DNA of 31,256 bases from a virus (IMGVR_UViG_3300030099_007889:1-31256), one strand, 5' to 3'; numbered from the stretch's first letter, positions 9,996 to 21,963 are shown. Notes: a model not told the origin generated them from the letters alone. A program made the numbers and translations.

Positions 9996-10220
9996 TTAAA
10001 AAACCTTACCAAAATTCTTTTCTGCAATCCGCACACCGCAAACGCTGGTTTTTGCGAATTTACGGGTAAGTCCAGAGTTTCTATCGTAAACTTGCACGTA
10101 TTTATCAGTCTCTGCCATAAGTTGAGCATTGAGCGACTCTCCTTGAGAAGTATAGAGACCAAAAAACCTTCCCTTAGAATTCCTAATAGCGCTCATCACT
10201 CGCGTATTAACTTTATTCAT
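9996..10220 (-). CDS. Small beta-rich phage protein
   Basis: 74 residues. The pattern Gly-Arg-Phe-Phe-Gly-Leu-Tyr, Glu-Ser-Leu-Asn-Ala-Gln, Lys-Tyr-Val-Gln-Val-Tyr-Asp-Arg, Arg-Lys-Phe-Ala-Lys-Thr-Ser-Val and Gly-Val-Arg-Ile suggests four or five beta strands in a small barrel. I do not recognise a function; a small nucleic-acid-binding or core-protein role is possible. The start overlaps the Clp gene stop as ATGA. An 8-bp inverted repeat (gttttttagta... taaaaaac, 9982-10004) spans its stop codon. Confidence 0.55.
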   Translation of the reverse strand: MNKVNTRVMSAIRNSKGRFFGLYTSQGESLNAQLMAETDKYVQVYDRNSGLTRKFAKTSVCGVRIAEKNFGKVF

Positions 10221-12682
10221 GTTGTTATCTTATCAAACTCTAGAGATTTGTCAACAATATTTACAGAAATTTTTTCTACATTCCTATTTTTCACAATATA
10301 GTTAGAAATAGGAACTTGGACAATGCTTTTTACTGCACTTTTTATTTTTCTGGCGTGATTTTTTTCTAATTTAATTTTATTTAAAATATATTTTTCTAAA
10401 CTTTTATTAAAGATTACTTGTATATTTCTATCTGCTAATCTGTTTTTTATTAGGACTAATTCTGCTTTAATAATTTTAATTAATTCAGATTCGCCAAGTT
10501 CATTGAAAACTAAAACCTCATCCACTCTAGCTAATAACTCTGGCCTGAAATATTTTTTCAATGACTTTCTGTAAATAGTGTCATCTTCCTCTATATCTGG
10601 CACGAAACCCATACTTTTTTTTGTTTTATCTTTATGACCGATATTTGAGGTCATTACAACTATAGTCTTACTAAAATCTATTTTTCTATTGAGATTGTCT
10701 GTGAGGTATCCTTCGTCTAATATTTGGAGAAGTATATCTAAAACTTTAGGTTCACATTTCTCTACCTCGTCAAACAAGACAACGCAGTTAGGATTATTTC
10801 TAACGTATTCAGTTAGTAAACCGCCCTCTTCATAGCCGACATAGCCAGCATTAGCACCTACCAGCTTAGAAATACCTGTTTTATCCTGATATTCGCTCAT
10901 ATTAAGCTGGAGGAAAGATTTTTCATTACCAAAGAAATACTTAGCAATTTTTTTAGCTGTGAATGTTTTGCCTACACTAGTAGAACCCACAAACAAAAAG
11001 TTACTTAAGGGCTTAAATGGGTCATTCAAACCAGCCTTAACACAAGAAAGAGCATTATGTATGACTTTTATATTTTTTTCCTGCCCGAAAATCTCACTAT
11101 TCATCTGATTGTAAAATTTAGCAAAAGATGAGGTGTTTTTGGCAATAGTTTTAGGCGATAAACCTGTTTTTTCTTTAAAAACAGCTAAAATATCTTTTTG
11201 CCTTATCTTTTGTTTCCTACCCCTTTTTTCTCCATATTTAGCCATCACCTGAAGATATTCTTTTAACAGAGAAGTAAACTTTTCTTCATCTATTTTTTCA
11301 TCTTCAGAAGTAGACATTAAGAACTCACAAAAAGCAGTCCTAACACCCTCTACACTAGAGGGTATCTCGTTATATTTTATCTTTGTTCTAGCTCCTAATT
11401 GATCAATAACATCAAAAGCTTTATCTGGAAATTTTTTATTGCTTAAAAACTTGTCACATAAGTCAATAATAGTATCCACATCTGACTCTGAATATTTAAC
11501 GTGATGAAAATCTTCATAATAAGGAAGCGCATTCAAAACAATTTTTTTAGTATCTTGTTTAGATGGCTCTTCAACAAATATTTTGTCAAATCTTCTTTTC
11601 ATTGCCGTGTCTTTCTCAAAGAATTTTTTGTATTCTTGAGATGTTGTAGCACCTATGCATTTTATATCTCCTCTAGCTAAAGCTGGCTTTAACATGTTGG
11701 AAGCATCCACAGCACCCTCCGAGTTACCAGCTCCAATTATTGTATGTATTTCATCAAAAAACAATATAATATTAGATTCCTTTTCAGCTTCTGCTATTAA
11801 AGATTTAAATCTCTCTTCAAACTCGCCTCTATACTTAGTTCCAGCTATCATAGCGCTAATGTCAACAGCACAAATTTGCATTAAAGACATGTGAGGTGGG
11901 CTTTCCTGACTGATAATTTTTTGTACGAGACCTTCGACTATCGCTGTTTTTCCAACACCAGCTTCTCCAACTAAAATAGCGTTACTTTTGTTTTTCTTGG
12001 AAAGAATTTCTATTAACTCATGTATTTCTTGGTCTCTGCCAGAAACTTTAGATATTTTTTTAGATAGAAACCTTTCATTAAGATTTACGCAGTATTTACT
12101 TAAGTTAGGAAGCGGCCCTTCATCATCTATTTTTTTAGGTTTTATTCTTAATTTACCGTCTTCAGTTAAAGGTCTACCTGAATCTATCAAAATACTTTTA
12201 ATTTGATCAGTGGGAGGAATGCTAGTTTCTAATATATATGTTTCTATGATATCTTTGGCATGTATAGTATCTATACCGTTTTTCTTAAGATACTCTATAA
12301 AATAACCTTCCATATCAAGTATCGTATAAAGGATATGCTCTATACCTATAAAATAACTATCAAAATTATCAGAGAAATCTTTAGCAAAGAATATTATTTC
12401 ATTTACATCTTCATGCCACCCCCCTTGTCCCTTAGATGATTGGAAATATTCTTTATTTTCAGATGCGTATTTTTTAAATAATTTAATAAATTTTTTACCT
12501 TCGAAAGAAATGCCATAGGTTTTTAACCTTACAGCACAACTGTCAGATATATTGATTAAACATCCATAAACTAAATGTGCAGTAGTAACCAAGGTATGAC
12601 CATTAGCCTCTGCAAATTTTTGAGAATCTTTAAGCCCTTTCTTAGCTTTAGGGGTTAGGTTAAAATCAGTTAGACCCATCAT
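10217..12682 (-). CDS. ClpA/ClpC-type AAA+ protein unfoldase
   Basis: 821 residues, the full size of an Hsp100 class I protein. Residues 1-about 150 are a Clp N domain (Gly-His-Thr-Leu-Val-Thr-Thr-Ala-His-Leu). AAA+ module 1 has Walker A at 239-246 (Gly-Glu-Ala-Gly-Val-Gly-Lys-Thr), Walker B at 306-311 and a Lys-Tyr-Arg-Gly pore loop near 283. Module 2 has Walker A at 566-573 (Gly-Ser-Thr-Ser-Val-Gly-Lys-Thr), a Gly-Tyr-Val-Gly pore loop at 613-616 and Walker B at 634-639. Only a short linker lies between modules, so there is no long ClpB/ClpC-type middle domain. Met-Gly-Phe at 691-693 sits where ClpA has Ile-Gly-Leu and ClpC Val-Gly-Phe, the ClpP-docking tripeptide. It may unfold proteins for the host ClpP or act alone. 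It starts 11 bases after the polymerase gene stops and ends in an ATGA overlap. Confidence 0.9.
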   Translation of the reverse strand: MMGLTDFNLTPKAKKGLKDSQKFAEANGHTLVTTAHLVYGCLINISDSCAVRLKTYGISFEGKKFIKLFKKYASENKEYFQSSKGQGGWHEDVNEIIFFAKDFSDNFDSYFIGIEHILYTILDMEGYFIEYLKKNGIDTIHAKDIIETYILETSIPPTDQIKSILIDSGRPLTEDGKLRIKPKKIDDEGPLPNLSKYCVNLNERFLSKKISKVSGRDQEIHELIEILSKKNKSNAILVGEAGVGKTAIVEGLVQKIISQESPPHMSLMQICAVDISAMIAGTKYRGEFEERFKSLIAEAEKESNIILFFDEIHTIIGAGNSEGAVDASNMLKPALARGDIKCIGATTSQEYKKFFEKDTAMKRRFDKIFVEEPSKQDTKKIVLNALPYYEDFHHVKYSESDVDTIIDLCDKFLSNKKFPDKAFDVIDQLGARTKIKYNEIPSSVEGVRTAFCEFLMSTSEDEKIDEEKFTSLLKEYLQVMAKYGEKRGRKQKIRQKDILAVFKEKTGLSPKTIAKNTSSFAKFYNQMNSEIFGQEKNIKVIHNALSCVKAGLNDPFKPLSNFLFVGSTSVGKTFTAKKIAKYFFGNEKSFLQLNMSEYQDKTGISKLVGANAGYVGYEEGGLLTEYVRNNPNCVVLFDEVEKCEPKVLDILLQILDEGYLTDNLNRKIDFSKTIVVMTSNIGHKDKTKKSMGFVPDIEEDDTIYRKSLKKYFRPELLARVDEVLVFNELGESELIKIIKAELVLIKNRLADRNIQVIFNKSLEKYILNKIKLEKNHARKIKSAVKSIVQVPISNYIVKNRNVEKISVNIVDKSLEFDKITT

Positions 12683-12693
12683 AATTCTTTACA

Positions 12694-15249
12694 CTATTTA
12701 AGTTCAGATAACTTCATGTAGATTTTGTCTTCTAGAGGAAAAATTTTATCTATAAACACAATATCATCGCCTTTAGAGCCATACACTATCACAATATCAG
12801 ATTTTTTGGGTAATTTTTTACCTGAATTTAAATAATCTGTGAGTCTAGCGTCTCTGTTGCTATCTAAGAAAAGACCCTCTAAAACACCACCTTCATCTTG
12901 CATCGTCAAACGTGCATATTTATTGCCATTTCTGCTGGTTCTACGCATAATATCAGTCAAAATACCTACAAATTTGACATTAGAGCGCTCATTTAAATCT
13001 TTTACCGTTTCTGCCGAGTGGAAATCGCCCTCATAGCTAAATACCTGTCTTATATTGTGTGAATAGCTATATCCTAAAAGTTTTTCTTCAAAAAACCAAT
13101 TAGCATATTTTAAATGCTGTTTATTCATTTCATAAATATTTTTATAAGGTTGGAACTTTTTATGAAATGTCTGAAACCTTTTATCTGAAAACATTTTTCT
13201 ATTATCATCACCCACCATATTTTGTTTTTTAGCGTCATGAATAGCATTTATTATGTCATAGCTATATTTTTCACCAAGAGACACAAAGTTTCTTTTCTCT
13301 CTGTCTGTTAATATATTAAATGTTTGAGCCTCTAAAACAAGTCTTGGCCTGTTGCTTTTTACAAAAGAATCTAACAAACCCGCTTGAATTAACGCTGACA
13401 ATGTCCCTATATTTAAACCTGCTTGTTTAGCCGACAAGAAAACTTCATATTTATTAGAGAATGACTCTTCCCTAAAATCAAGTAGGGACTGTAATACTTT
13501 AGTTGAAACCCCCTTTATTGAATTCAGGCCGTATCTTATGTTTTTACCCTCTATTTTAAAATCTATATCTGATTTATTTAAATCGGGAGGCAAAAGCTTT
13601 ATATCAAAATGAGAAAGCTCTTGAGATATTTTAGCTATCTCTTCGTGAGAATTAGGTTCGAATTTTGCATATTTCAAAAGACTTAAAAAGAACTCTTGTG
13701 GGTATGTAAACTTTAAGTAAACAGTTATGGCGGCTAAATGTGCGTAACTGATTGAGTGAGACTTGTTAAATGAGTAATTAGCGGAATCCTCTGCTACTCT
13801 CCACAAAACATCTCCAATCGCAGGGTCTAATTTGTTTTCTTGAATTTTATCCTCGATTCTCGCTTTCCATGCTGGCATCTGATCGACTTTTTTCTTGCCG
13901 ACAATCCTTCTTAATTGCTCCGCTTCATCTAAAGTAAAACCTACCTTTACAGCCATTTTCATTAACTGTTCTTGATAAAGAGGAATACCACCTGTGTAGC
14001 TCAAAATATCATCAAAAAACTCATGGACCGATTGGAATTCTCCAGTGCGAACGTATGCCGCATAACTATCTTTAAAGTCTAAAGCTCCAGGTCTTGCAAT
14101 AGCGACAACCGCAGACAACTGCTCTAAATTTTGAGGCGCAATCAAACGACAAACTTTGAAATTAGTCTCTGCTTCAATTTGGAATAAGCCTTGTGGAGAA
14201 CGCAAAGAAGATAAAGCTGTGTAAATAATCTCATTATTAACATCTATTTCTGATACATCTATATCTACTTGTTTGCAAACATCATGAACAACAGAAAGCG
14301 TTCTCAAACCAAGGATATCGAACTTGACACTAAGGCTCGCGACATCATTCATATCATATCCAGAAACAAGAGCGCCATCATTAGTTGTTTGAAGAGGCAT
14401 TATGCCATCTAAATCATAGTATGAAATAGATATGCCAGAGGGATGAACTCCAGTGTTTTTGTTCAAGCCTTGTAATTTTTTTGCTATCTGAAATACTTTA
14501 GGGTATTTATCAGCGTAAGATTTAAAAGATTCACTCTCTTCATAAGCGGTATCTAATTTAGCCACAATACCAAAGTGTTTAGGAATAGTATCACTTATTT
14601 GATTAACTTCCCCCTCTGATAATTCAGCCACAATTTTACCACACTCTTTCATACAAAGTTTACCACTAAGAGTATTTAGGGTGAGAATTTTGGATGTTTT
14701 ACCCTCATATTTTTGCTCGATGTAATTGATTACTTCTGCCCGTCTATCATAAGAAATATCGTTATCTACATCAGCAAGTAAGCTACCATCAAGAAATGTT
14801 TCGCCATTATGTTCTATTTTTTTAGCTCTACTTTTAGATACAAACCTTTCAAAGAAAAGATCATACTCAATAGGATCTATGTTAGTAACACCTATTACAT
14901 AAAGAACTAAAGAACCAGCTGCGCTTCCCCTCCCTGCTCCTGTAGGAATGTCGTTTTCTTTGCAAAAATTTATAATGTCCCAATTAAGAAGAATGTAGTC
15001 AGTAAACCCAAGATCATCAAAGATTGTTAATTCTTCTTTTAATCTATCATAATAAGTTTGTGCGTTTTCAAATTTATCAATACCTTTTTGTTTTAATCTG
15101 GCAAAGCAAAGCCTTCTTAAGAATTGGAAGTTATCTCCCAGGTCTAGACAAGCAACCTCGTCATAATATTTTTTTTCTATTTTAATTTCTGGCAATTTTA
15201 CCCCAACAGGAAATGGAGTATTGTAACCTGTAAAACTGTTAGAACTCAT
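12694..15249 (-). CDS. dnaE: DNA polymerase III alpha, polymerase piece without PHP
   Basis: 851 residues; replicative DNA synthesis. It begins where family C polymerases leave the PHP domain. Gly-Ala-Gly-Arg-Gly-Ser-Ala-Ala-Gly-Ser at 104-113 is the nucleotide-binding motif. Asp160 and Asp162 in Leu-Ala-Asp-Val-Asp-Asn-Asp match E. coli Asp401/Asp403, and Asp311 in Lys-Phe-Asp-Ile-Leu-Gly-Leu-Arg matches Asp555, so the catalytic triad is present. Then come the fingers region (Gln-Arg/Leu-Arg-Arg-Ile-Val-Gly-Lys-Lys), a helix-hairpin-helix region near 600-640, and an OB-fold near 745-830. The missing PHP domain seems to be the gene at 15859-16617: 252 plus 851 residues is close to a normal DnaE length. 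It starts in an ATGA overlap with the exonuclease gene, so the three are probably co-translated. No clear clamp-binding motif was identified. Confidence 0.93.
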   Translation of the reverse strand: MSSNSFTGYNTPFPVGVKLPEIKIEKKYYDEVACLDLGDNFQFLRRLCFARLKQKGIDKFENAQTYYDRLKEELTIFDDLGFTDYILLNWDIINFCKENDIPTGAGRGSAAGSLVLYVIGVTNIDPIEYDLFFERFVSKSRAKKIEHNGETFLDGSLLADVDNDISYDRRAEVINYIEQKYEGKTSKILTLNTLSGKLCMKECGKIVAELSEGEVNQISDTIPKHFGIVAKLDTAYEESESFKSYADKYPKVFQIAKKLQGLNKNTGVHPSGISISYYDLDGIMPLQTTNDGALVSGYDMNDVASLSVKFDILGLRTLSVVHDVCKQVDIDVSEIDVNNEIIYTALSSLRSPQGLFQIEAETNFKVCRLIAPQNLEQLSAVVAIARPGALDFKDSYAAYVRTGEFQSVHEFFDDILSYTGGIPLYQEQLMKMAVKVGFTLDEAEQLRRIVGKKKVDQMPAWKARIEDKIQENKLDPAIGDVLWRVAEDSANYSFNKSHSISYAHLAAITVYLKFTYPQEFFLSLLKYAKFEPNSHEEIAKISQELSHFDIKLLPPDLNKSDIDFKIEGKNIRYGLNSIKGVSTKVLQSLLDFREESFSNKYEVFLSAKQAGLNIGTLSALIQAGLLDSFVKSNRPRLVLEAQTFNILTDREKRNFVSLGEKYSYDIINAIHDAKKQNMVGDDNRKMFSDKRFQTFHKKFQPYKNIYEMNKQHLKYANWFFEEKLLGYSYSHNIRQVFSYEGDFHSAETVKDLNERSNVKFVGILTDIMRRTSRNGNKYARLTMQDEGGVLEGLFLDSNRDARLTDYLNSGKKLPKKSDIVIVYGSKGDDIVFIDKIFPLEDKIYMKLSELK

Positions 15250-15878
15250 ATTTCAAGGTCAAATAATTGTTTGCGAAAAACTTTAAAATTCATTTCAATG
15301 TCATACAAAGCATCATGAAGTCTTTTGGGATCATGTTCAATGTTATATTTCTTAAGAAGAGTAGCTTGAGATGTTTTTAAACCTCTCTCTCTGTGATTTA
15401 ACAGTCTATACTGCCAGCCAATAAAATCATTTTTGTCCACAGGTATTTGTTTTGCTATGGCAGTAGCCAAAGATTTTGTATCTATGATTCTATCGACAAA
15501 TGAGTAATCTGGGTTTTTACCCATAAGTTTTCTCCAAATGTTTACCATATAAACATCAAAGCCTAAAAGGTTTTGACCAATGATTAAATTATTTTCGTCA
15601 TAAAGATCTTTAGAGAACTCTTCCCAAACTTGATTCGGAGCCTTAGAGTTCTTGTTATATTCTTTCATAGAAAAACCTGTCACCTTGGCGGCTCCCTCTG
15701 AAACATTAATGTTCGGCCAATGAATAAACCTATCGTTACGGGCCACAATTTTGTCCCCTTCTACAACTAGCCACGCAACCTGCCAAGGTCTAGAGGTAAT
15801 TAAATTTAAACCTTCGGTTTCTGTGTCAAAGACTATATATCTTTGCTTTTTGTTAAATCTAAGCAGTGGCTCGTTCAT
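15246..15878 (-). CDS. DnaQ-like DEDDh 3'-5' exonuclease
   Basis: 210 residues. The three exonuclease motifs are visible: Phe-Asp-Thr-Glu-Thr-Glu-Gly near residue 17 (ExoI), Gly-Gln-Asn-Leu-Leu-Gly-Phe-Asp near 103 (ExoII), and His-Asp-Ala-Leu-Tyr-Asp near 188 (ExoIII with the His of the DEDDh class). All catalytic residues are kept. It most likely proofreads for the adjacent polymerase. The gene lies exactly between the PHP-like gene (20-base overlap) and the polymerase gene (4-base overlap). That order recalls PolC, where an exonuclease is inserted in the PHP domain of a single chain. Confidence 0.9.
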   Translation of the reverse strand: MNEPLLRFNKKQRYIVFDTETEGLNLITSRPWQVAWLVVEGDKIVARNDRFIHWPNINVSEGAAKVTGFSMKEYNKNSKAPNQVWEEFSKDLYDENNLIIGQNLLGFDVYMVNIWRKLMGKNPDYSFVDRIIDTKSLATAIAKQIPVDKNDFIGWQYRLLNHRERGLKTSQATLLKKYNIEHDPKRLHDALYDIEMNFKVFRKQLFDLEI

Positions 15879-16617
15879 TCTCTAAATATGATTCAAAGCA
15901 AAATTCATTACTGCCAAAATGATCTAGATTAGGACAGCTTAAACTTGCGGTTCTCCCAAAGTTTCTATTGCACAAAATTTTATATGTTTGTAAAGCCTCT
16001 ACATCTTGCTTCTTCTTATAAAGAATGCTTTTGACTTTTCTTATCGGTCTATTTTCTGTAAAAAGATTGCCTTTAGCAAACTTCAAAACTTTCTGTTTTA
16101 ATAGGTGATCAAAAGGTAGCCCATTATCTTCAACCCAAAATGTAGGACATATTTTATTGAAATTGGGGACACACTTCCTTAAGTGAAAATTGTTATTGTA
16201 GATAAATGAATCATAAAAGGGGATAACCATCTCCAAATTGTTGTCCCATATAGAATTTAAAAAAGCAAAATCAACTTTTCCTTTACCCGTATGAGCATAC
16301 GAATATATTTTGTAAAGCAATCTACAGCCATCGTCATTATTTGCAAATATAACAATTTTATGATCTGAATTGTCTTCAGCCTCAATATCGTTGCAACAAG
16401 TTAACCTTAAACCAAAAACTAAATCTATATCTCTAGAACGACACCTGTTATGAGCAGTTACAAAACCAGTCATTGAATCTTCGACAAGAACTAAAGACTT
16501 TATGTTATGCTCCTCACATATGCTTAGAATACTATCGGGACCACCATCTAACTCATCCTCATCAAGAGTCAAAATACTCTTTCCAATTGAATAGGTGGAC
16601 TTAAATACTGGTATCAT
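15859..16617 (-). CDS. PHP-domain piece of DNA polymerase III alpha
   Basis: 252 residues from the ATG at 16617; a GTG lies directly before it. The order of segments follows the DnaE PHP domain: Ser-Thr-Tyr-Ser-Ile near the start, Lys-Ser-Leu-Val-Leu-Val-Glu-Asp-Ser, a helix, Leu-Val-Phe-Gly-Leu-Arg, Lys-Ile-Val-Ile-Phe-Ala-Asn-Asn-Asp-Asp-Gly then Leu-Tyr-Lys-Ile-Tyr-Ser, and a closing Phe-Glu-Ser-Tyr where DnaE has its end-of-PHP helix. The metal ligands are mostly gone: the H-x-H position reads Phe-Lys, and the Asp-His and Gly-x-Glu positions read Glu-Asp and Gly-Leu-Arg. It is therefore probably structural, docking the polymerase piece or the exonuclease. It overlaps the exonuclease gene by 20 bases. 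The assignment is by segment pattern and context. Confidence 0.65.
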   Translation of the reverse strand: MIPVFKSTYSIGKSILTLDEDELDGGPDSILSICEEHNIKSLVLVEDSMTGFVTAHNRCRSRDIDLVFGLRLTCCNDIEAEDNSDHKIVIFANNDDGCRLLYKIYSYAHTGKGKVDFAFLNSIWDNNLEMVIPFYDSFIYNNNFHLRKCVPNFNKICPTFWVEDNGLPFDHLLKQKVLKFAKGNLFTENRPIRKVKSILYKKKQDVEALQTYKILCNRNFGRTASLSCPNLDHFGSNEFCFESYLENERATA

Positions 16618-16648
16618 CACTGTCAGGATACCCGTTTTCTCGGATTTG

Positions 16649-17674
16649 TCAAGAAGAATGTGCGGGACATCCTTGATAATATCTCAACTCGCAGAAACCA
16701 CCCTCTGGAATCAAGCTTTCAGAAAAACTATCTTCAAAATAAGATTTACAAAACTTACCTTCGGAATTGTAGACCTCATAATAAAAAAAATCAAACTTCA
16801 TGGGGCAGTGCCACTTAGGAGATCCGTCTTTTTTTAATTCACCTTTTCTAGTTGCAAAACCACATAAAAGTTTGCCGCTAAAAGAATTGTCTTTTGGAAA
16901 GCCTTGGTGTGCTGCAAAATTGTATTTAGCATCTCTCTCTGAAAAATTATCTAAATATTTTTGGATTTCTGTAAGTTGTAACTCGAAACCTTTTAATTCG
17001 TCAGTTTCTAAAGGCTTCATCCTGACAACGCCAGATTTGCTAGCATTAGGATCTAAATCAAACTTAAGAAACAAAAACTCACTGACTCTGTTAGAGTATT
17101 CTGGAAAAAGTTTTTGCACCGCCAAACTATACATCAAGTCTTGTAAATTATCTGTTTGGTCCTTTCCTTTGAAAACGTCCTTGCTTGTTTTAAAATCTCT
17201 TATTAAAGCAAATTTTTGTTTTTTATACAAAAACAGTTTGTCTATAAACCCTCTTACTCTATAGCAAATATCGCCCTCTTTTTTTACTATATCAAAATCT
17301 TTTTCAGAGTATTCTTGAGATGGCTTTGATAAATCCCCACCAAAAAAATCATAAGACAACCCATTAAAGATCATGTCTTTCATAAGGTTTACATTGTCTA
17401 TGTCGTCTACCCCCTCTTTTAAAGCGTGTTTTAATATCAATTTCTTTATAGACGGAACAGAGAAAACATCTTGGGTTTTAATTATTTTATTATAATATTT
17501 TTTTCTTTTTTTAACTCCGAGAACTTCAAATATAAGATGGCATATAGATCCTCTACGCGCACCATCATTACCTTTTTCTGGAAGATGAAGCTTATACTTA
17601 CACCAATACAGCCAAGAGCAGGATTGAGCTGTCTTAATCCTACTAGCAGATAAAGGTGTTTGAGGTTCAGGCAT
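16649..17674 (-). CDS. Cas4/RecB-like PD-(D/E)XK nuclease
   Basis: 341 residues from the ATG at 17674, which is preceded by a GTG. The N-terminus (Pro-Leu-Ser-Ala-Ser-Arg-Ile, then Ser-Cys-Ser-Trp-Leu-Tyr-Trp-Cys, then Gly-Ser-Ile-Cys-His) matches the first motif of RecB/Cas4-type nucleases. The active-site pair is Gly-Phe-Ile-Asp (near 154) and Ile-Arg-Asp-Phe-Lys-Thr-Ser (near 170), followed by Asp-Leu-Met-Tyr-Ser-Leu-Ala, the Q/D-x-x-x-Y-type helix. Several further cysteines lie near the C-terminus, the last in Gln-Gly-Cys-Pro-Ala-His; an iron-sulfur cluster is possible but the spacing is not the standard one. Probable role: end processing in replication or recombination. It overlaps the primase gene by 8 bases. 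Confidence 0.8.
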   Translation of the reverse strand: MPEPQTPLSASRIKTAQSCSWLYWCKYKLHLPEKGNDGARRGSICHLIFEVLGVKKRKKYYNKIIKTQDVFSVPSIKKLILKHALKEGVDDIDNVNLMKDMIFNGLSYDFFGGDLSKPSQEYSEKDFDIVKKEGDICYRVRGFIDKLFLYKKQKFALIRDFKTSKDVFKGKDQTDNLQDLMYSLAVQKLFPEYSNRVSEFLFLKFDLDPNASKSGVVRMKPLETDELKGFELQLTEIQKYLDNFSERDAKYNFAAHQGFPKDNSFSGKLLCGFATRKGELKKDGSPKWHCPMKFDFFYYEVYNSEGKFCKSYFEDSFSESLIPEGGFCELRYYQGCPAHSS

Positions 17675-18734
17675 CACTAAGTAATAAAGCAGTCTTTATT
17701 TCTTTTTTAGTGAAGCTTGAAGAGTTGTTTTTAACAAAATCGCAAATAAATTTAAGTTGTGCAGTCTGATCTATTGATTTTTCTAGCCAATATTTCTTTA
17801 TGTCACAATTATCTAAATGAGCGTCACCAAAATCATTATATGATTTTGGAGGGAATTTTACACTTAAGGCGCTTAAGTCGAAGTAATTAGAAAGCTTTAA
17901 AAAACTCTTCAGTGCGGCGATAAATCCTCTATTTTGCCCACTATTTTCATCGTTATTTGTTGAAATATATATATGATCGATAGACCTACCACTAAGATAA
18001 TTAATAATATTATTATTAACAGATAAGCCAAAAATGACAAGAACATTTTTAATGTTTTGTTCGTAAAGAGCCAACGCATCTCCTATACTTTCTACTAAAA
18101 TTACTTCTTTTTTTAATTCAATTTCTTTATCAACACCAGTTTTACAGTTGAAAGCTGGATAAACCCAATTGTTACGCCTCCCAATATGTTTCCATTTTGG
18201 ATAATCATTATTATCATCTACTTTTCTTCCAGAGAATCCAATAATTTGATTATGTTCATTATATACAGGAAACACCATTCTTCTATACATCTTACCAAAT
18301 CCAGCTAATCCAACTTGAAAATCCTTTTGTGTCTCTTCAGATATATTTCTGTTATTATAAAAATTATAGTTAGGGAATAATCTTTCTAGTGATGATTCTG
18401 GGTAAATTTTTTCCATCTCTATTTTCTCTTTAGGGCAATAAGTAACTACATCAGTAGTGGAAGAATTAACTAAAATTTCTTGTATTTGTTTTTGATCTTT
18501 TACTGTAAGACGGATAAGAGCCTCAAAAGGTTTAGAGCCTTTGTTTTCTACAAAATCCATCCATACACCAGTGTTTTTGTATATTTTTACAGCAGTATTA
18601 TTATCACCTTCTCTATACAAAGCTTGAGTTCTCCAATGATCTCCACAATCAATAAGAGTGTATCCGATTGATTCTAAAATTCCTTGGAAGTCTTCAGAAC
18701 TGATCGAAGTCTGGGATTGTTTCTTGGATTCCAT
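17667..18734 (-). CDS. DnaG-like primase with degenerate metal sites
   Basis: 355 residues from the ATG at 18734; a GTG precedes it. The N-terminal 75 residues follow the primase zinc-domain fold (Asp-His-Trp-Arg-Thr-Gln-Ala, then Thr-Gly-Val-Trp-Met-Asp-Phe) but lack its cysteine and histidine ligands. Residues about 150-200 carry the Arg-Arg-Met-Val-Phe-Pro-Val then Ile-Gly-Phe-Ser-Gly-Arg signature of DnaG. The TOPRIM part has the conserved Glu in Val-Glu-Ser-Ile-Gly-Asp-Ala-Leu (near 215). The later acidic motif reads Thr-Asn-Asn-Asp-Glu-Asn-Ser-Gly, so its first Asp is Asn. Phage primases do lose the zinc; whether TOPRIM chemistry survives needs testing. The gene overlaps the helicase gene by 41 bases and is next to it, as in phage primase-helicase pairs. 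Confidence 0.8.
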   Translation of the reverse strand: MESKKQSQTSISSEDFQGILESIGYTLIDCGDHWRTQALYREGDNNTAVKIYKNTGVWMDFVENKGSKPFEALIRLTVKDQKQIQEILVNSSTTDVVTYCPKEKIEMEKIYPESSLERLFPNYNFYNNRNISEETQKDFQVGLAGFGKMYRRMVFPVYNEHNQIIGFSGRKVDDNNDYPKWKHIGRRNNWVYPAFNCKTGVDKEIELKKEVILVESIGDALALYEQNIKNVLVIFGLSVNNNIINYLSGRSIDHIYISTNNDENSGQNRGFIAALKSFLKLSNYFDLSALSVKFPPKSYNDFGDAHLDNCDIKKYWLEKSIDQTAQLKFICDFVKNNSSSFTKKEIKTALLLSDA

Positions 18735-20211
18735 CACTATCTAAATCTTCATGACCATTTAAAACTCTAGCTATGTCCCTAAGATCTCCCCTCTCCGTAA
18801 TATTAAAATTATTAAAATCTAAATTAATAGCATTTTTTCTCAACGAGTCTCCGATACTTACAGGTTCTACAGCCCCAGCGATATCGCTACCTAAGTGCCT
18901 AGCTTTCACATTAATCAGTTTATGTGTTCCAAACCTCCCGCCTTCTGTTTCTACTTCATCTGTAGTTTTGCTGCGAAGAATAAACATGTGAGAGCAAAAT
19001 TGAGTGATCCTGTCTGATAAAGAAACAATAGATTCATCATCGACTATATTTTGAGATGTTCGATTAGTGGTGATACCATATCTATTTGATTGAACAGATG
19101 TAATCATAGGTATTACTGGATTGCCATCATTCAAAATCTCTTTTTGCACACATTTCTTAAACTTGTCCACCATTTCACCTACAACTTGCCACTCTGATTT
19201 ATTGCCCACACTTTCAGATGTTGTCTTTATATAATCAAAAGAAAATACCATCTGGTTTCCTCTCCCAACTTTAGCATAATAAAACCTTTTTAAAGTATTA
19301 ACCATTGAGTCAACATCCATGCCGCCAACATTATAGTAATAAAATTTTAAATTTTTAACTTTAGGCCAAACAGATCTCACCTTATCTACAACATCCTGAC
19401 CAGCTTTCCTCCATTTACCACTTTCAAGCAAATGCATTGGGACACCAGATAAAGCCGCACATTGTCTCATGATAAGTTCTTCTTTGCTCATCTCTCCATT
19501 GTCAAAGTGAAGAACAGGGACACCATATTGTAAACTTACTTTAGTAGAATAATCCATGCAAAACTGCGTTTTACCGACACCAGAGCGAGCAACAATAACT
19601 GTAATATTACCAGCTCTTAAAAGTGATCCATAAATGTCATTTATCTTTTGATGTGGACCCATCATCCCAAATTCTGTGACAGGGTTATTACCACGCTCCT
19701 CTACAAGAGCTTCCATATCCTCATAAATATTTTCTGGTGTATCGTTACCTATTTCATAAAGATTAATTCGTGAATTGTATACATTGTCAGCTGCTTCTAT
19801 AATATCTCTATAAGAAGACTCGGGAGCAATGTTTTTCATCTTCTTTACTATATCTTGAGAAGACTCCAGTATTTCTCTTCTTATAGTGTATTTTTTAAGT
19901 TCTTTAGCTGTCTTTAAAATATTACCCTCGGGAACTTTCCTCAAAGATAAAGATTTGATATAGTCAGATGGATTCAGATTATCTTCAAATGATAACCCTA
20001 CTTCATTTACTCTTTGAGCAATAATAATTTCGTCTATCTCATCACCAACATCAATTGCTTGTTTAATTATTCTAAATATCGCAGAATGTAGAGAGCTTTG
20101 TTTAGAATAAAAATCAGAATTACTTACAAAATTAGAAATTTCCGCAAAACTTTCTGGATACTTAATTAAGCCAGCTAGCAACTGTTTTTCTAATTCAAAA
20201 TTATATATCAT
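18694..20211 (-). CDS. dnaB: DnaB-like replicative helicase
   Basis: 505 residues. Residues 1-about 140 form the DnaB N-terminal helical domain (Glu-Leu-Glu-Lys-Gln-Leu-Leu-Ala-Gly-Leu-Ile at the start). The RecA-like domain has Walker A at 208-215 (Ala-Arg-Ser-Gly-Val-Gly-Lys-Thr), His-Phe-Asn/Asp-type Glu motif Asp-Asn-Gly-Glu-Met-Ser near 238, Walker B as Val-Phe-Ser-Phe-Asp-Tyr-Ile near 325, and a Gln motif (Thr-Ser-Val-Gln-Ser-Asn-Arg). The acidic C-terminal tail ends Asp-Phe-Asp-Gln-Phe and is encoded by DNA shared with the primase start. It unwinds the fork and recruits primase. The start is in an ATGA overlap with the upstream small gene. Confidence 0.93.
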   Translation of the reverse strand: MIYNFELEKQLLAGLIKYPESFAEISNFVSNSDFYSKQSSLHSAIFRIIKQAIDVGDEIDEIIIAQRVNEVGLSFEDNLNPSDYIKSLSLRKVPEGNILKTAKELKKYTIRREILESSQDIVKKMKNIAPESSYRDIIEAADNVYNSRINLYEIGNDTPENIYEDMEALVEERGNNPVTEFGMMGPHQKINDIYGSLLRAGNITVIVARSGVGKTQFCMDYSTKVSLQYGVPVLHFDNGEMSKEELIMRQCAALSGVPMHLLESGKWRKAGQDVVDKVRSVWPKVKNLKFYYYNVGGMDVDSMVNTLKRFYYAKVGRGNQMVFSFDYIKTTSESVGNKSEWQVVGEMVDKFKKCVQKEILNDGNPVIPMITSVQSNRYGITTNRTSQNIVDDESIVSLSDRITQFCSHMFILRSKTTDEVETEGGRFGTHKLINVKARHLGSDIAGAVEPVSIGDSLRKNAINLDFNNFNITERGDLRDIARVLNGHEDLDSDGIQETIPDFDQF

Positions 20212-20453
20212 TCTTCTTCTTCTGTTATTTCGTTATCTGGATGCTGAAAGTGGTTCTCCAGCGCTTTTGTTAGAGCAAATTCTGTCATACCGCAGTCAAA
20301 TTTACAATAGATAAGTGGCTTGCCATTTTCAGATGAAACAGCCATAATAACTCCTTTATACTTATCAGCTCCACCCGATAATTCATAGAGTTTATCGACC
20401 ATCTCTGTAGGTATGCAAAACTCTCCGTCATCACTTCCTTCTGGTAGATTCAT
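20208..20453 (-). CDS. Small acidic hypothetical protein
   Basis: 81 residues, acidic at both ends (Glu-Gly-Ser-Asp-Asp-Gly-Glu, and a Glu-rich tail). A central strand-helix pattern is visible (Gly-Val-Ile-Met-Ala-Val-Ser, then Ile-Tyr-Cys-Lys-Phe-Asp). No known motif was recognised. It lies in 4-base overlaps (ATGA) between the nuclease and helicase genes, so it is co-translated with replication genes and may be a helicase or recombinase partner; that is inference from position only. Confidence 0.6.
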   Translation of the reverse strand: MNLPEGSDDGEFCIPTEMVDKLYELSGGADKYKGVIMAVSSENGKPLIYCKFDCGMTEFALTKALENHFQHPDNEITEEEE

Positions 20454-20857
20454 AAATAAATATTTTGTTTAGTAAATAAAGATGCTTGTATTTCATCTTG
20501 AGGATAAACTTCTGCTAACTTTATTTTATTAGCTTGGCAGAAATTTAATTTTTGTTCATCTCTTTTAAGTTGGTCAGCATATTTAAAATGATTTTTATGA
20601 AAATGCTTCACAAACTTTGTATGTTGAGCGCCCTGAACTTCGACTGCTATTTTTTTGTTAGCGTTGTAAAAATCTAAAGTAAGTCTGCTACCAACAACCC
20701 TAAACTCTTCAAAGACAATATCATTTTCCCAAAATGGACGCAAAAACTTTTTTACTGTTGTCTGGAACTTACTTCGACTGGGCTTATCCCAATCAATTAA
20801 ATATTTTTTTGCGTTTTTTAGGTTTCTCTCTTTTCCATACCTATCAACAAATTTCAT
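20450..20857 (-). CDS. PD-(D/E)XK-type small nuclease (DUF559/Vsr-like)
   Basis: 135 residues. The core reads Glu-Glu-Phe then Leu-Thr-Leu-Asp-Phe-Tyr (about 52-68) and Ile-Ala-Val-Glu-Val-Gln-Gly-Ala-Gln-His (about 70-79). It continues with His-Phe-Lys-Tyr-Ala-Asp-Gln-Leu-Lys-Arg-Asp-Glu-Gln-Lys and ends in a strand-helix pair. The Asp, Glu-x-Gln/Lys and Arg-Asp positions are those of the Vsr/DUF559 branch of the PD-(D/E)XK fold. It could cleave branched or mismatched DNA, for example as a junction resolvase. Its place right after the RecA-like gene (ATGA overlap) supports a recombination role. Confidence 0.7.
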   Translation of the reverse strand: MKFVDRYGKERNLKNAKKYLIDWDKPSRSKFQTTVKKFLRPFWENDIVFEEFRVVGSRLTLDFYNANKKIAVEVQGAQHTKFVKHFHKNHFKYADQLKRDEQKLNFCQANKIKLAEVYPQDEIQASLFTKQNIYL

Positions 20858-21963
20858 GCTCCGATTTGTTCCCTAAAATACTTGATTAAGAATTGACACA
20901 ACTTCTCGTCCTGATCAAGCGTTTTGAATAAATTATTATCACCTTGGATTTGATCAGGAAAGTTTAATTTATTTTCTGCCAACAACTCACAGAAATCCTC
21001 TGTCGGTTTAATCCATGCACCTTTTTTTTCTACGAACTCCCAAGCATAAAGCAAATCTACGATTTCTTTCTCTATCCAAATAGAATTGCCACCAGAACGA
21101 TTATATCTGACGGGATAAGTTAAGCTTACATTAGATTTTTCGTTAGGAGATTTGCAGATCAAAACTTTTGCAAAATGACCTATGATTGGATTTTTCTTCT
21201 CGTCGATAGTTTTTATGCTAGGGTTTTGAAGAATCAAGTCCGATTTATATCTAGGTTGAAATTGAATTACGCTATTAGCATAATGTTGTAAAGCGTAACC
21301 GCCTGTAGATACAGACTGTCTAGGAGGCTCTTTGGAATATTGGTCTCTCATTTCTGACCTTACCTGACTGATGAAAATAGCCATGTGTCCTCTTTTGCCT
21401 AAAGCTATACTAGTCTTTTTGCACCAAACAGATGCGATGTTTGCTCCTGCTGCTATCTTAGAGAATTCATCAAAACCCTTAGGGGCATCATTTTTTGCTA
21501 TTAACCCATCAACAGAGTCTAATATAAAACAATACTTATGTTTATTTTTTACATTATCAATGAGTTGCTTAATACAGGTCATCGCTGCTTCATAAATATT
21601 TGTTTCTAGAACAAAGCAGGTGCCATCTACCCATTCATCTGGCGACCACACAAATTTTATCCCAGATCTTTCTCTGATCTCTTTACCCAGTCTGCCTTCA
21701 GCCTTAATATATACTCCTCTAGGGTTTTCTATCGTGGTCAAAAAGTTCTTCATGACCTCTAAAGCCTCGGATGTTTTTCCTCCTTCTGTAAGACCAGTAA
21801 AACGATGTAACCCAGGTCCAAAGCCCCCGTTCATGCAAAGGTCGAATTGAAGAGAGCCGCTAGAAACTCTATAATCACACTCCTCTTCAAAATTGTAGTG
21901 ATCGCTTTTGTTTGATTTCAAAAAATTTCCTAGAATATCGTTTGGGTCTGGTCCTTCACTCAT
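20854..21963 (-). CDS. recA: RecA/UvsX-like recombinase
   Basis: 369 residues. The core begins Val-Ser-Ser-Gly-Ser-Leu-Gln-Phe-Asp, then Walker A Gly-Leu-Thr-Glu-Gly-Gly-Lys-Thr at 57-64 and Walker B Cys-Phe-Ile-Leu-Asp-Ser-Val-Asp-Gly (near 147). An Ile-Ser-Gln-Val-Arg segment (near 199) matches the loop leading into the DNA-binding L1 region, and a Gly-Gly-Tyr-Ala-Leu segment the L2 end. The C-terminal about 70 residues form a helical tail unlike bacterial RecA. Role: strand exchange in recombination-dependent replication and repair. It overlaps the upstream gene by 8 bases and the downstream nuclease gene by 4. Confidence 0.88.
   Translation of the reverse strand: MSEGPDPNDILGNFLKSNKSDHYNFEEECDYRVSSGSLQFDLCMNGGFGPGLHRFTGLTEGGKTSEALEVMKNFLTTIENPRGVYIKAEGRLGKEIRERSGIKFVWSPDEWVDGTCFVLETNIYEAAMTCIKQLIDNVKNKHKYCFILDSVDGLIAKNDAPKGFDEFSKIAAGANIASVWCKKTSIALGKRGHMAIFISQVRSEMRDQYSKEPPRQSVSTGGYALQHYANSVIQFQPRYKSDLILQNPSIKTIDEKKNPIIGHFAKVLICKSPNEKSNVSLTYPVRYNRSGGNSIWIEKEIVDLLYAWEFVEKKGAWIKPTEDFCELLAENKLNFPDQIQGDNNLFKTLDQDEKLCQFLIKYFREQIGA

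Follow-up and report, generated by a model that had tools for sequence, protein, structure and literature searches.

A viral DnaE-type DNA polymerase encoded in two pieces, with a DEDDh exonuclease gene between its PHP and polymerase parts

Can the alpha subunit of DNA polymerase III (Pol III) be divided between two genes, with the exonuclease that presumably proofreads for it encoded in between, and, if so, what is the detached piece for? The question is raised by a linear 31,256-base viral record of the IMG/VR database (IMGVR_UViG_3300030099_007889), a fragment, referred to here over its whole length as the window. A sequence-only reading of this DNA had proposed that positions 12,694 to 16,617 hold a DnaE split into a PHP piece and a polymerase piece around a DEDDh exonuclease gene, with neighbouring genes overlapping by 20 and 4 bases. 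The open reading frame (ORF) calls and the junction sequence reproduce both overlaps exactly, and the two pieces together (252 + 851 = 1103 residues) are DnaE-sized, as had been claimed. The features are the following.

15859-16617, minus strand: PHP-domain protein, 252 residues from an ATG at 16617 (ORF, profiles, model)
15859-16620, minus strand: the same gene from an alternative GTG start at 16620, 253 residues (ORF call)
15859-15878, minus strand: overlap of the PHP and exonuclease genes, 20 bases (ORF call and junction sequence)
15246-15878, minus strand: DEDDh 3'-5' exonuclease, 210 residues, presumed proofreading subunit (ORF, profiles)
15246-15249, minus strand: overlap of the exonuclease and polymerase genes, 4 bases, ATGA (ORF call and junction sequence)
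12694-15249, minus strand: PHP-less DnaE-type polymerase, 851 residues, with palm, thumb, fingers, HhH and C-terminal OB

The search for relatives and precedents covered INPHARED and IMG/VR, a single scan of bacterial genomes, and open-access PubMed Central (PMC).

The two pieces of the polymerase

The 851-residue protein matches Pfam DNA_pol3_alpha (PF07733, 1.1e-60), the fingers and the HhH domain (HHH_6, 7.8e-18), and it scores 457.5 against TIGR00594 (cut-off 434.35). Judged by its sequence, it is clearly DnaE-type and far from PolC (383 bits against Thermus DnaE, 28-31 bits against PolC). Its structure model (851 residues; predicted local distance difference test, pLDDT, 86.7) aligns with residues 284-1123 of Thermus DnaE, and with E. 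coli DnaE from about residue 270. Model residues 739-841 match OB folds, the OB domain being C-terminal, and the sequence stops about 10 residues past this fold, so that a C-terminal tau-binding domain may be absent, judging by length only. The protein starts with a normal Met about 15 residues ahead of the first conserved motif, and its catalytic triad of D160, D162 and D311 is intact in 148 of 148 relatives, in agreement with the proposal that this gene begins where the PHP domain ends and keeps the catalytic aspartates. A PHP domain in the same chain was not found: among 184 polymerase hits no ORF is matched by both family profiles, nor does any fused PHP-polymerase form occur among them.

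As to the 252-residue protein, the single sequence matches Pfam PHP weakly (E 0.0037) and phrog_405, the DnaE N-terminus, at E 2.4e-8, and the sole match in a sequence-profile search of the PDB is PolC at 0.012. Alignment by hhalign of a 31-member family profile with phage DnaE PHP domains gives 97.6% probability (E 2.9e-12). An AlphaFold2 model built from the family alignment (pLDDT 84.8; predicted template modelling score, pTM, 0.84) matches residues 7..263 of T. aquaticus DnaE with a Z score of 20.1 (3.3 Å, 229 residues) and residues 6..251 of E. coli DnaE with Z about 19.8, versus Z 16-17 for PolC and about 11 for other PHP enzymes. Profile alignment and structure prediction, the two checks proposed along with the original assignment to the DnaE PHP segment, thus both match, and together they make a solid prediction of a DnaE-type PHP domain with the whole fold, the C-terminal part included, as a single uninterrupted domain in its own ORF. 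Since the PHP model corresponds to Thermus DnaE 7-263 and the polymerase model to 284-1123, the DnaE is cut at the PHP/palm border; mapped onto the DnaE structure, the pieces adjoin, short of some 20 residues. In isolated phages, tblastn with the window PHP protein gave no match even at E 1. As a rule for annotation, such PHP genes are missed or weakly scored by single-sequence searches and would be labelled hypothetical.

The nine PHP metal ligands, written HHDHEH[C/H]DH following PMC12926913, define the active form only. At these positions the profile alignment places V4, K6, K13, D47, R71, K87, F134, S197 and L199 of the window protein, the fourth falling at a one-residue gap in the alignment and being less certainly placed than the other eight. 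In place of a by-eye placement of the last two ligands in an FWVEDN motif, the same alignment leads to S197 and L199. All nine positions are substituted family-wide, save for a canonical His that 2 of 132 distinct PHPs have at position 47; the loss of metal ligands, first proposed for the window protein, therefore holds for essentially the whole family. The subunit is best read, from these substitutions, as catalytically dead and, with its metal site lost, could therefore not serve as a PHP-type nuclease. The former active site carries conserved residues of another kind (K/R13, D47, R71, K87); all 132 distinct PHPs share K87 and F134, and also the neighbouring Y135 and E163, and the other ligand positions vary narrowly. 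Across 132 distinct intact ORFs, 26 columns are conserved in at least 97%, and the gene is under purifying selection, with a median ratio of nonsynonymous to synonymous divergence (dN/dS) of about 0.13, a rough figure, as dS is near saturation.

The exonuclease and the family-wide gene order

The 210-residue protein matches Pfam RNase_T (E 2.3e-14) over residues 15-201, and its DEDDh residues, D18, E20, D108, H188 and D193, are intact in 136 of 136 relatives, full-length members of the family measuring 202-239 residues. Its best solved relative is the exonuclease domain of T. maritima PolC (E 1.2e-9 vs 1.3e-6 for a DnaQ), and its top NCBIfam match is TIGR01405, polC_Gram_pos (2.2e-10). Overall, the protein is about equally near PolC exonuclease domains and DnaQ/epsilon, the scores being nearly tied. 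It is presumably the dedicated proofreader of the polymerase. In isolated phages, two weak Microbacterium matches were the only ones, with no DnaE beside them in the stretch shown.

The scan of IMG/VR with the polymerase returned 405 relatives, of which 80 were kept, and a deeper profile returned more than 550, with 80 kept; the scan with the PHP profile returned more than 560, again with 80 kept. In every kept locus holding all three genes, these follow the order PHP-exonuclease-polymerase on one strand (94, 75 and 74 loci in overlapping sets, plus 5 contigs binned with bacterial metagenome-assembled genomes, MAGs), and the family defined by this order includes 143 distinct polymerases. The loci without the full module are only those on contigs that end inside it, and there is no untruncated locus without the PHP gene. 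The same gene order, which it had been suggested to look for in other phages, thus recurs in every untruncated related locus. The arrangement is confirmed as far beyond chance, and as old and fixed in its family, a large and diverse group of tailed-phage-like, uncultivated aquatic viruses of bacteria. An assembly error is ruled out by recurrence in many metagenomes.

Insertions concentrate at the junction between the PHP and exonuclease genes without disturbing the order of the three replicase genes: the inserted genes, of 0.3-2.3 kilobases (kb), differ by lineage, and include a cupin, a radical SAM protein, other cargo and unknowns (loci L122-L194). At the other junction, between exonuclease and polymerase, 70 sister-clade loci (L095-L102 and L115-L194, for example L100:9437-9679) share a conserved ORF, about 66-85 codons long, starting MASLDDIYD and often ending in a charged tail. 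Neither the window nor its near relatives yielded this ORF, which has no Pfam or PHROG match; it is a possible candidate for a fourth subunit. In one MAG-binned contig (L200:9995-12976), the polymerase homologue reads as two ORFs (593 + 393 codons), unlike in other members. Of the six module-bearing MAG contigs, three (L195, L198 and L199) were assigned to Saprospiraceae or Flavobacteriaceae, which hints weakly at Bacteroidota hosts; the remaining bins do not agree.

Eighteen related records, 92-172 kb long and of uncertified completeness, allowed the rest of the replication machinery to be surveyed by hidden Markov model searches. Each of the 18 encodes exactly one family C polymerase (PF07733). 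Neither family B nor family A polymerases were found in these records, nor was any other PHP, nor any RNase_T outside the module exonuclease, it being understood that divergent proteins can escape such profiles: PF02811 matches the PHP gene itself in 15 of 18 (missing 3), and RNase_T detects the module exonuclease in 13 of 18 (missing 5). The bacterial beta clamp (PF00712) gave nothing above the cut-off in the 18 records, and the T4-type clamp (PF09116) no convincing match. The three-gene polymerase is thus the only detectable replicase of these records, and a separate full-length polymerase with its own PHP, which would have spoken against the split, was found in none of them.

Readings of the three-gene arrangement

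We consider it likely that these genes encode a three-subunit replicase core, in which the polymerase would be joined by a proofreader of its own and a dead PHP subunit; that these subunits assemble is inferred. An ancestral one-chain DnaE would have been divided at the PHP/palm border, after which the 851-residue protein would polymerise, the 210-residue DEDDh protein would proofread, and the 252-residue PHP protein, its metal site lost, would be kept as a separate structural subunit, re-associating with the palm and thumb to complete the polymerase and probably helping to place the exonuclease. We presume here that the three proteins physically assemble, that this exonuclease proofreads and that PHP serves as a scaffold, and the PHP protein may act as a structural hub, as the sequence-only reading had supposed. 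A precedent exists in the E. coli Pol III core, which, like the window, combines a dead PHP with a DEDDh proofreader supplied in trans, and in which the dead PHP still supports stability and activity, including polymerisation at a distance (PMC3666897). Loss of the PHP ligands has been found to accompany a proofreader in trans (PMC3666897), with exceptions discussed elsewhere (PMC3919608; PMC12926913). The three-subunit core also fits the purifying selection on PHP and the tracking of polymerase distances by PHP distances (r 0.905).

Several observations weigh against this interpretation. A distance correlation of this kind would arise among the genes of one phage lineage through common descent by itself. 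Unrelated genes, amounting to 0.2-2.3 kb, often lie between PHP and exonuclease in the sister clade, and strict translational coupling is therefore not required. In E. coli, PHP is part of alpha and epsilon has a C-terminal alpha-binding tail, whereas the window exonuclease ends about 9 residues past the RNase_T fold and has no such tail. The epsilon-contacting Lys63-Pro64 of E. coli alpha presumably corresponds to Asp65-Leu66 of the window PHP; in the family alignment Leu is present at position 66 in 126 of 132. Docking of the E. coli type on PHP can be rejected, both of its hallmarks, the tail and the Lys63-Pro64 equivalent, being absent; with that contact lost, the exonuclease, if it docks on PHP, would therefore dock differently.

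We put forward a more specific arrangement tentatively, as possible rather than likely: PHP and exonuclease may form a detachable proofreading and assembly module on a PHP-less polymerase, with an interface unlike that between epsilon and alpha of E. coli, and with the metal site rebuilt as a conserved charged core (K/R13, D47, R71, K87) that would hold the subunit together or sense a partner.

It is unlikely that the PHP protein has left the replicase for another job, for example as a regulator or in some other binding role, with the polymerase working without any PHP. The gene is indeed separate and is parted from the exonuclease by other genes in many sister-clade genomes, and the conserved residues of the rebuilt active site could make up a new site. 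However, the whole DnaE-type fold has been kept, at a Z of about 20 to DnaE versus about 11 to other PHP enzymes, as has the place ahead of the exonuclease and polymerase in every untruncated locus, none lacking PHP, and PHP has been called invariable in C-family polymerases (PMC3666897).

It is very improbable that the module truly descends from PolC at the gene level, by a split into three genes. PolC of Gram-positive bacteria of low guanine-cytosine (GC) content encodes PHP, exonuclease and polymerase together in roughly the order of the window, and the solved structure and the NCBIfam model nearest to the exonuclease both belong to PolC; however, the PolC and epsilon scores of the exonuclease are nearly tied, the polymerase is far nearer DnaE, and so is the PHP (Z about 20 vs 16-17). 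PolC is a single chain with the exonuclease inside PHP, an N-terminal OB and a PHP site that is usually intact, and the window differs in all four respects. The description of the locus as a three-gene counterpart of PolC could thus not be upheld, as the locus has an uninterrupted PHP, an exonuclease gene placed between PHP and palm, a C-terminal OB and a polymerase of the DnaE type.

More improbable still is a single chain produced from the pieces through programmed frameshifting, an intron or trans-splicing inteins. The overlapping genes are in different frames, cyanobacteria are known to have a split-intein DnaE (PMC3919608), and there are phages with an interrupted DnaE: in Alicyclobacillus phage KKP_3916 and Bacillus phage KLEB27-3 the DnaE match is spread over several ORFs. 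In these phages, however, it is the polymerase part that is broken up, an HNH endonuclease gene accompanying the break in some, and PHP stays in the first piece along with polymerase sequence. The cyanobacterial DnaE carries intein halves at the split ends, whereas the 252-residue PHP protein and the polymerase of the window have none, nor is there room for them, as the PHP fold extends to the end of its protein and the starting Met of the polymerase is near the first conserved motif. The 0.2-2.3 kb of other genes between the parts in the sister clade exclude recoding or splicing of the pieces for those genomes and thus rule out an intron or frameshift origin. Decay of PHP as a relic of the ancestral DnaE, to which the loss of all nine catalytic ligand positions might point, is equally hard to credit and is ruled out by the selection analysis (132 distinct intact ORFs, 26 highly conserved columns, low dN/dS), the gene being missing only where a contig end cuts the locus.

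A split DnaE is itself already known; the combination found in the window family was not found in isolated phages or in the papers searched, the search of open-access PMC yielding no three-gene arrangement of this type. The nearest example is presented by the Microbacterium cluster EF phages (Krampusvirus: Krampus, AnnaSerena, JDawG), whose DnaE is likewise split at the PHP/palm border into two adjacent genes, for a 345-residue PHP protein and a 766-residue PHP-less polymerase; the presence of two genes for a Pol III alpha that normally comes from one gene has been remarked for these phages (PMC7302621). All nine metal ligands are present in their PHP (Pfam PHP 2e-35), whereas the PHP of the window family is dead, and no exonuclease gene lies between their pieces, whereas a DEDDh exonuclease gene intervenes in the window family. 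Another example is Pbunavirus (PB1-like Pseudomonas phages such as PS44), in which a DEDDh exonuclease gene (184 residues) overlaps and directly precedes the DnaE gene, and the PHP is degenerate (Pfam PHP 2.9e-4), as in the window, but still fused, in a DnaE of 1035 residues. The group 2.2 jumbo phages also encode Pol III alpha in two genes, but their split is inside the palm, between the nucleoside triphosphate-binding and the magnesium/DNA-binding subdomains, and their genes are distant, with a family B polymerase alongside (PMC7824862). Bacteroidetes DnaE1 is of the DnaE type and has its own exonuclease, but as one chain, with the exonuclease N-terminal to PHP (PMC3919608).

PHP has been described as a constant part of family C replicases, even where its catalytic site is dead, and its non-enzymatic role has so far been probed only through mutants of the fused domain (PMC3666897). 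The window family, with a naturally separate PHP subunit that appears to have a dead site, next to what is presumably a dedicated proofreader, poses the question of what PHP is for directly, and its separate proteins could be used to dissect the role of PHP in stability, polymerisation and exonuclease placement.

Surrounding genes

The module is part of a replication cluster on the minus strand of the window, with the transcription order helicase, primase, PD-(D/E)XK nuclease, PHP, exonuclease, polymerase and AAA+ ATPase. The neighbours are listed below.

18694-20211, minus strand: DnaB-like replicative helicase, same replication cluster (Pfam/PHROG-type profile matches)
17667-18737, minus strand: DnaG-like primase (Toprim), same replication cluster (profile matches)
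16649-17677, minus strand: PD-(D/E)XK nuclease, immediately upstream of the PHP gene (profile matches)
10217-12682, minus strand: ClpA/ClpB-like AAA+ ATPase, next gene downstream of the polymerase (match to phrog_4871, 'ATP-dependent protease', at 1.6e-208)

Further along, an HNH/homing-endonuclease-like ORF (20450-20857, minus strand) adjoins the gene for a UvsX-like recombinase (20854-21963).

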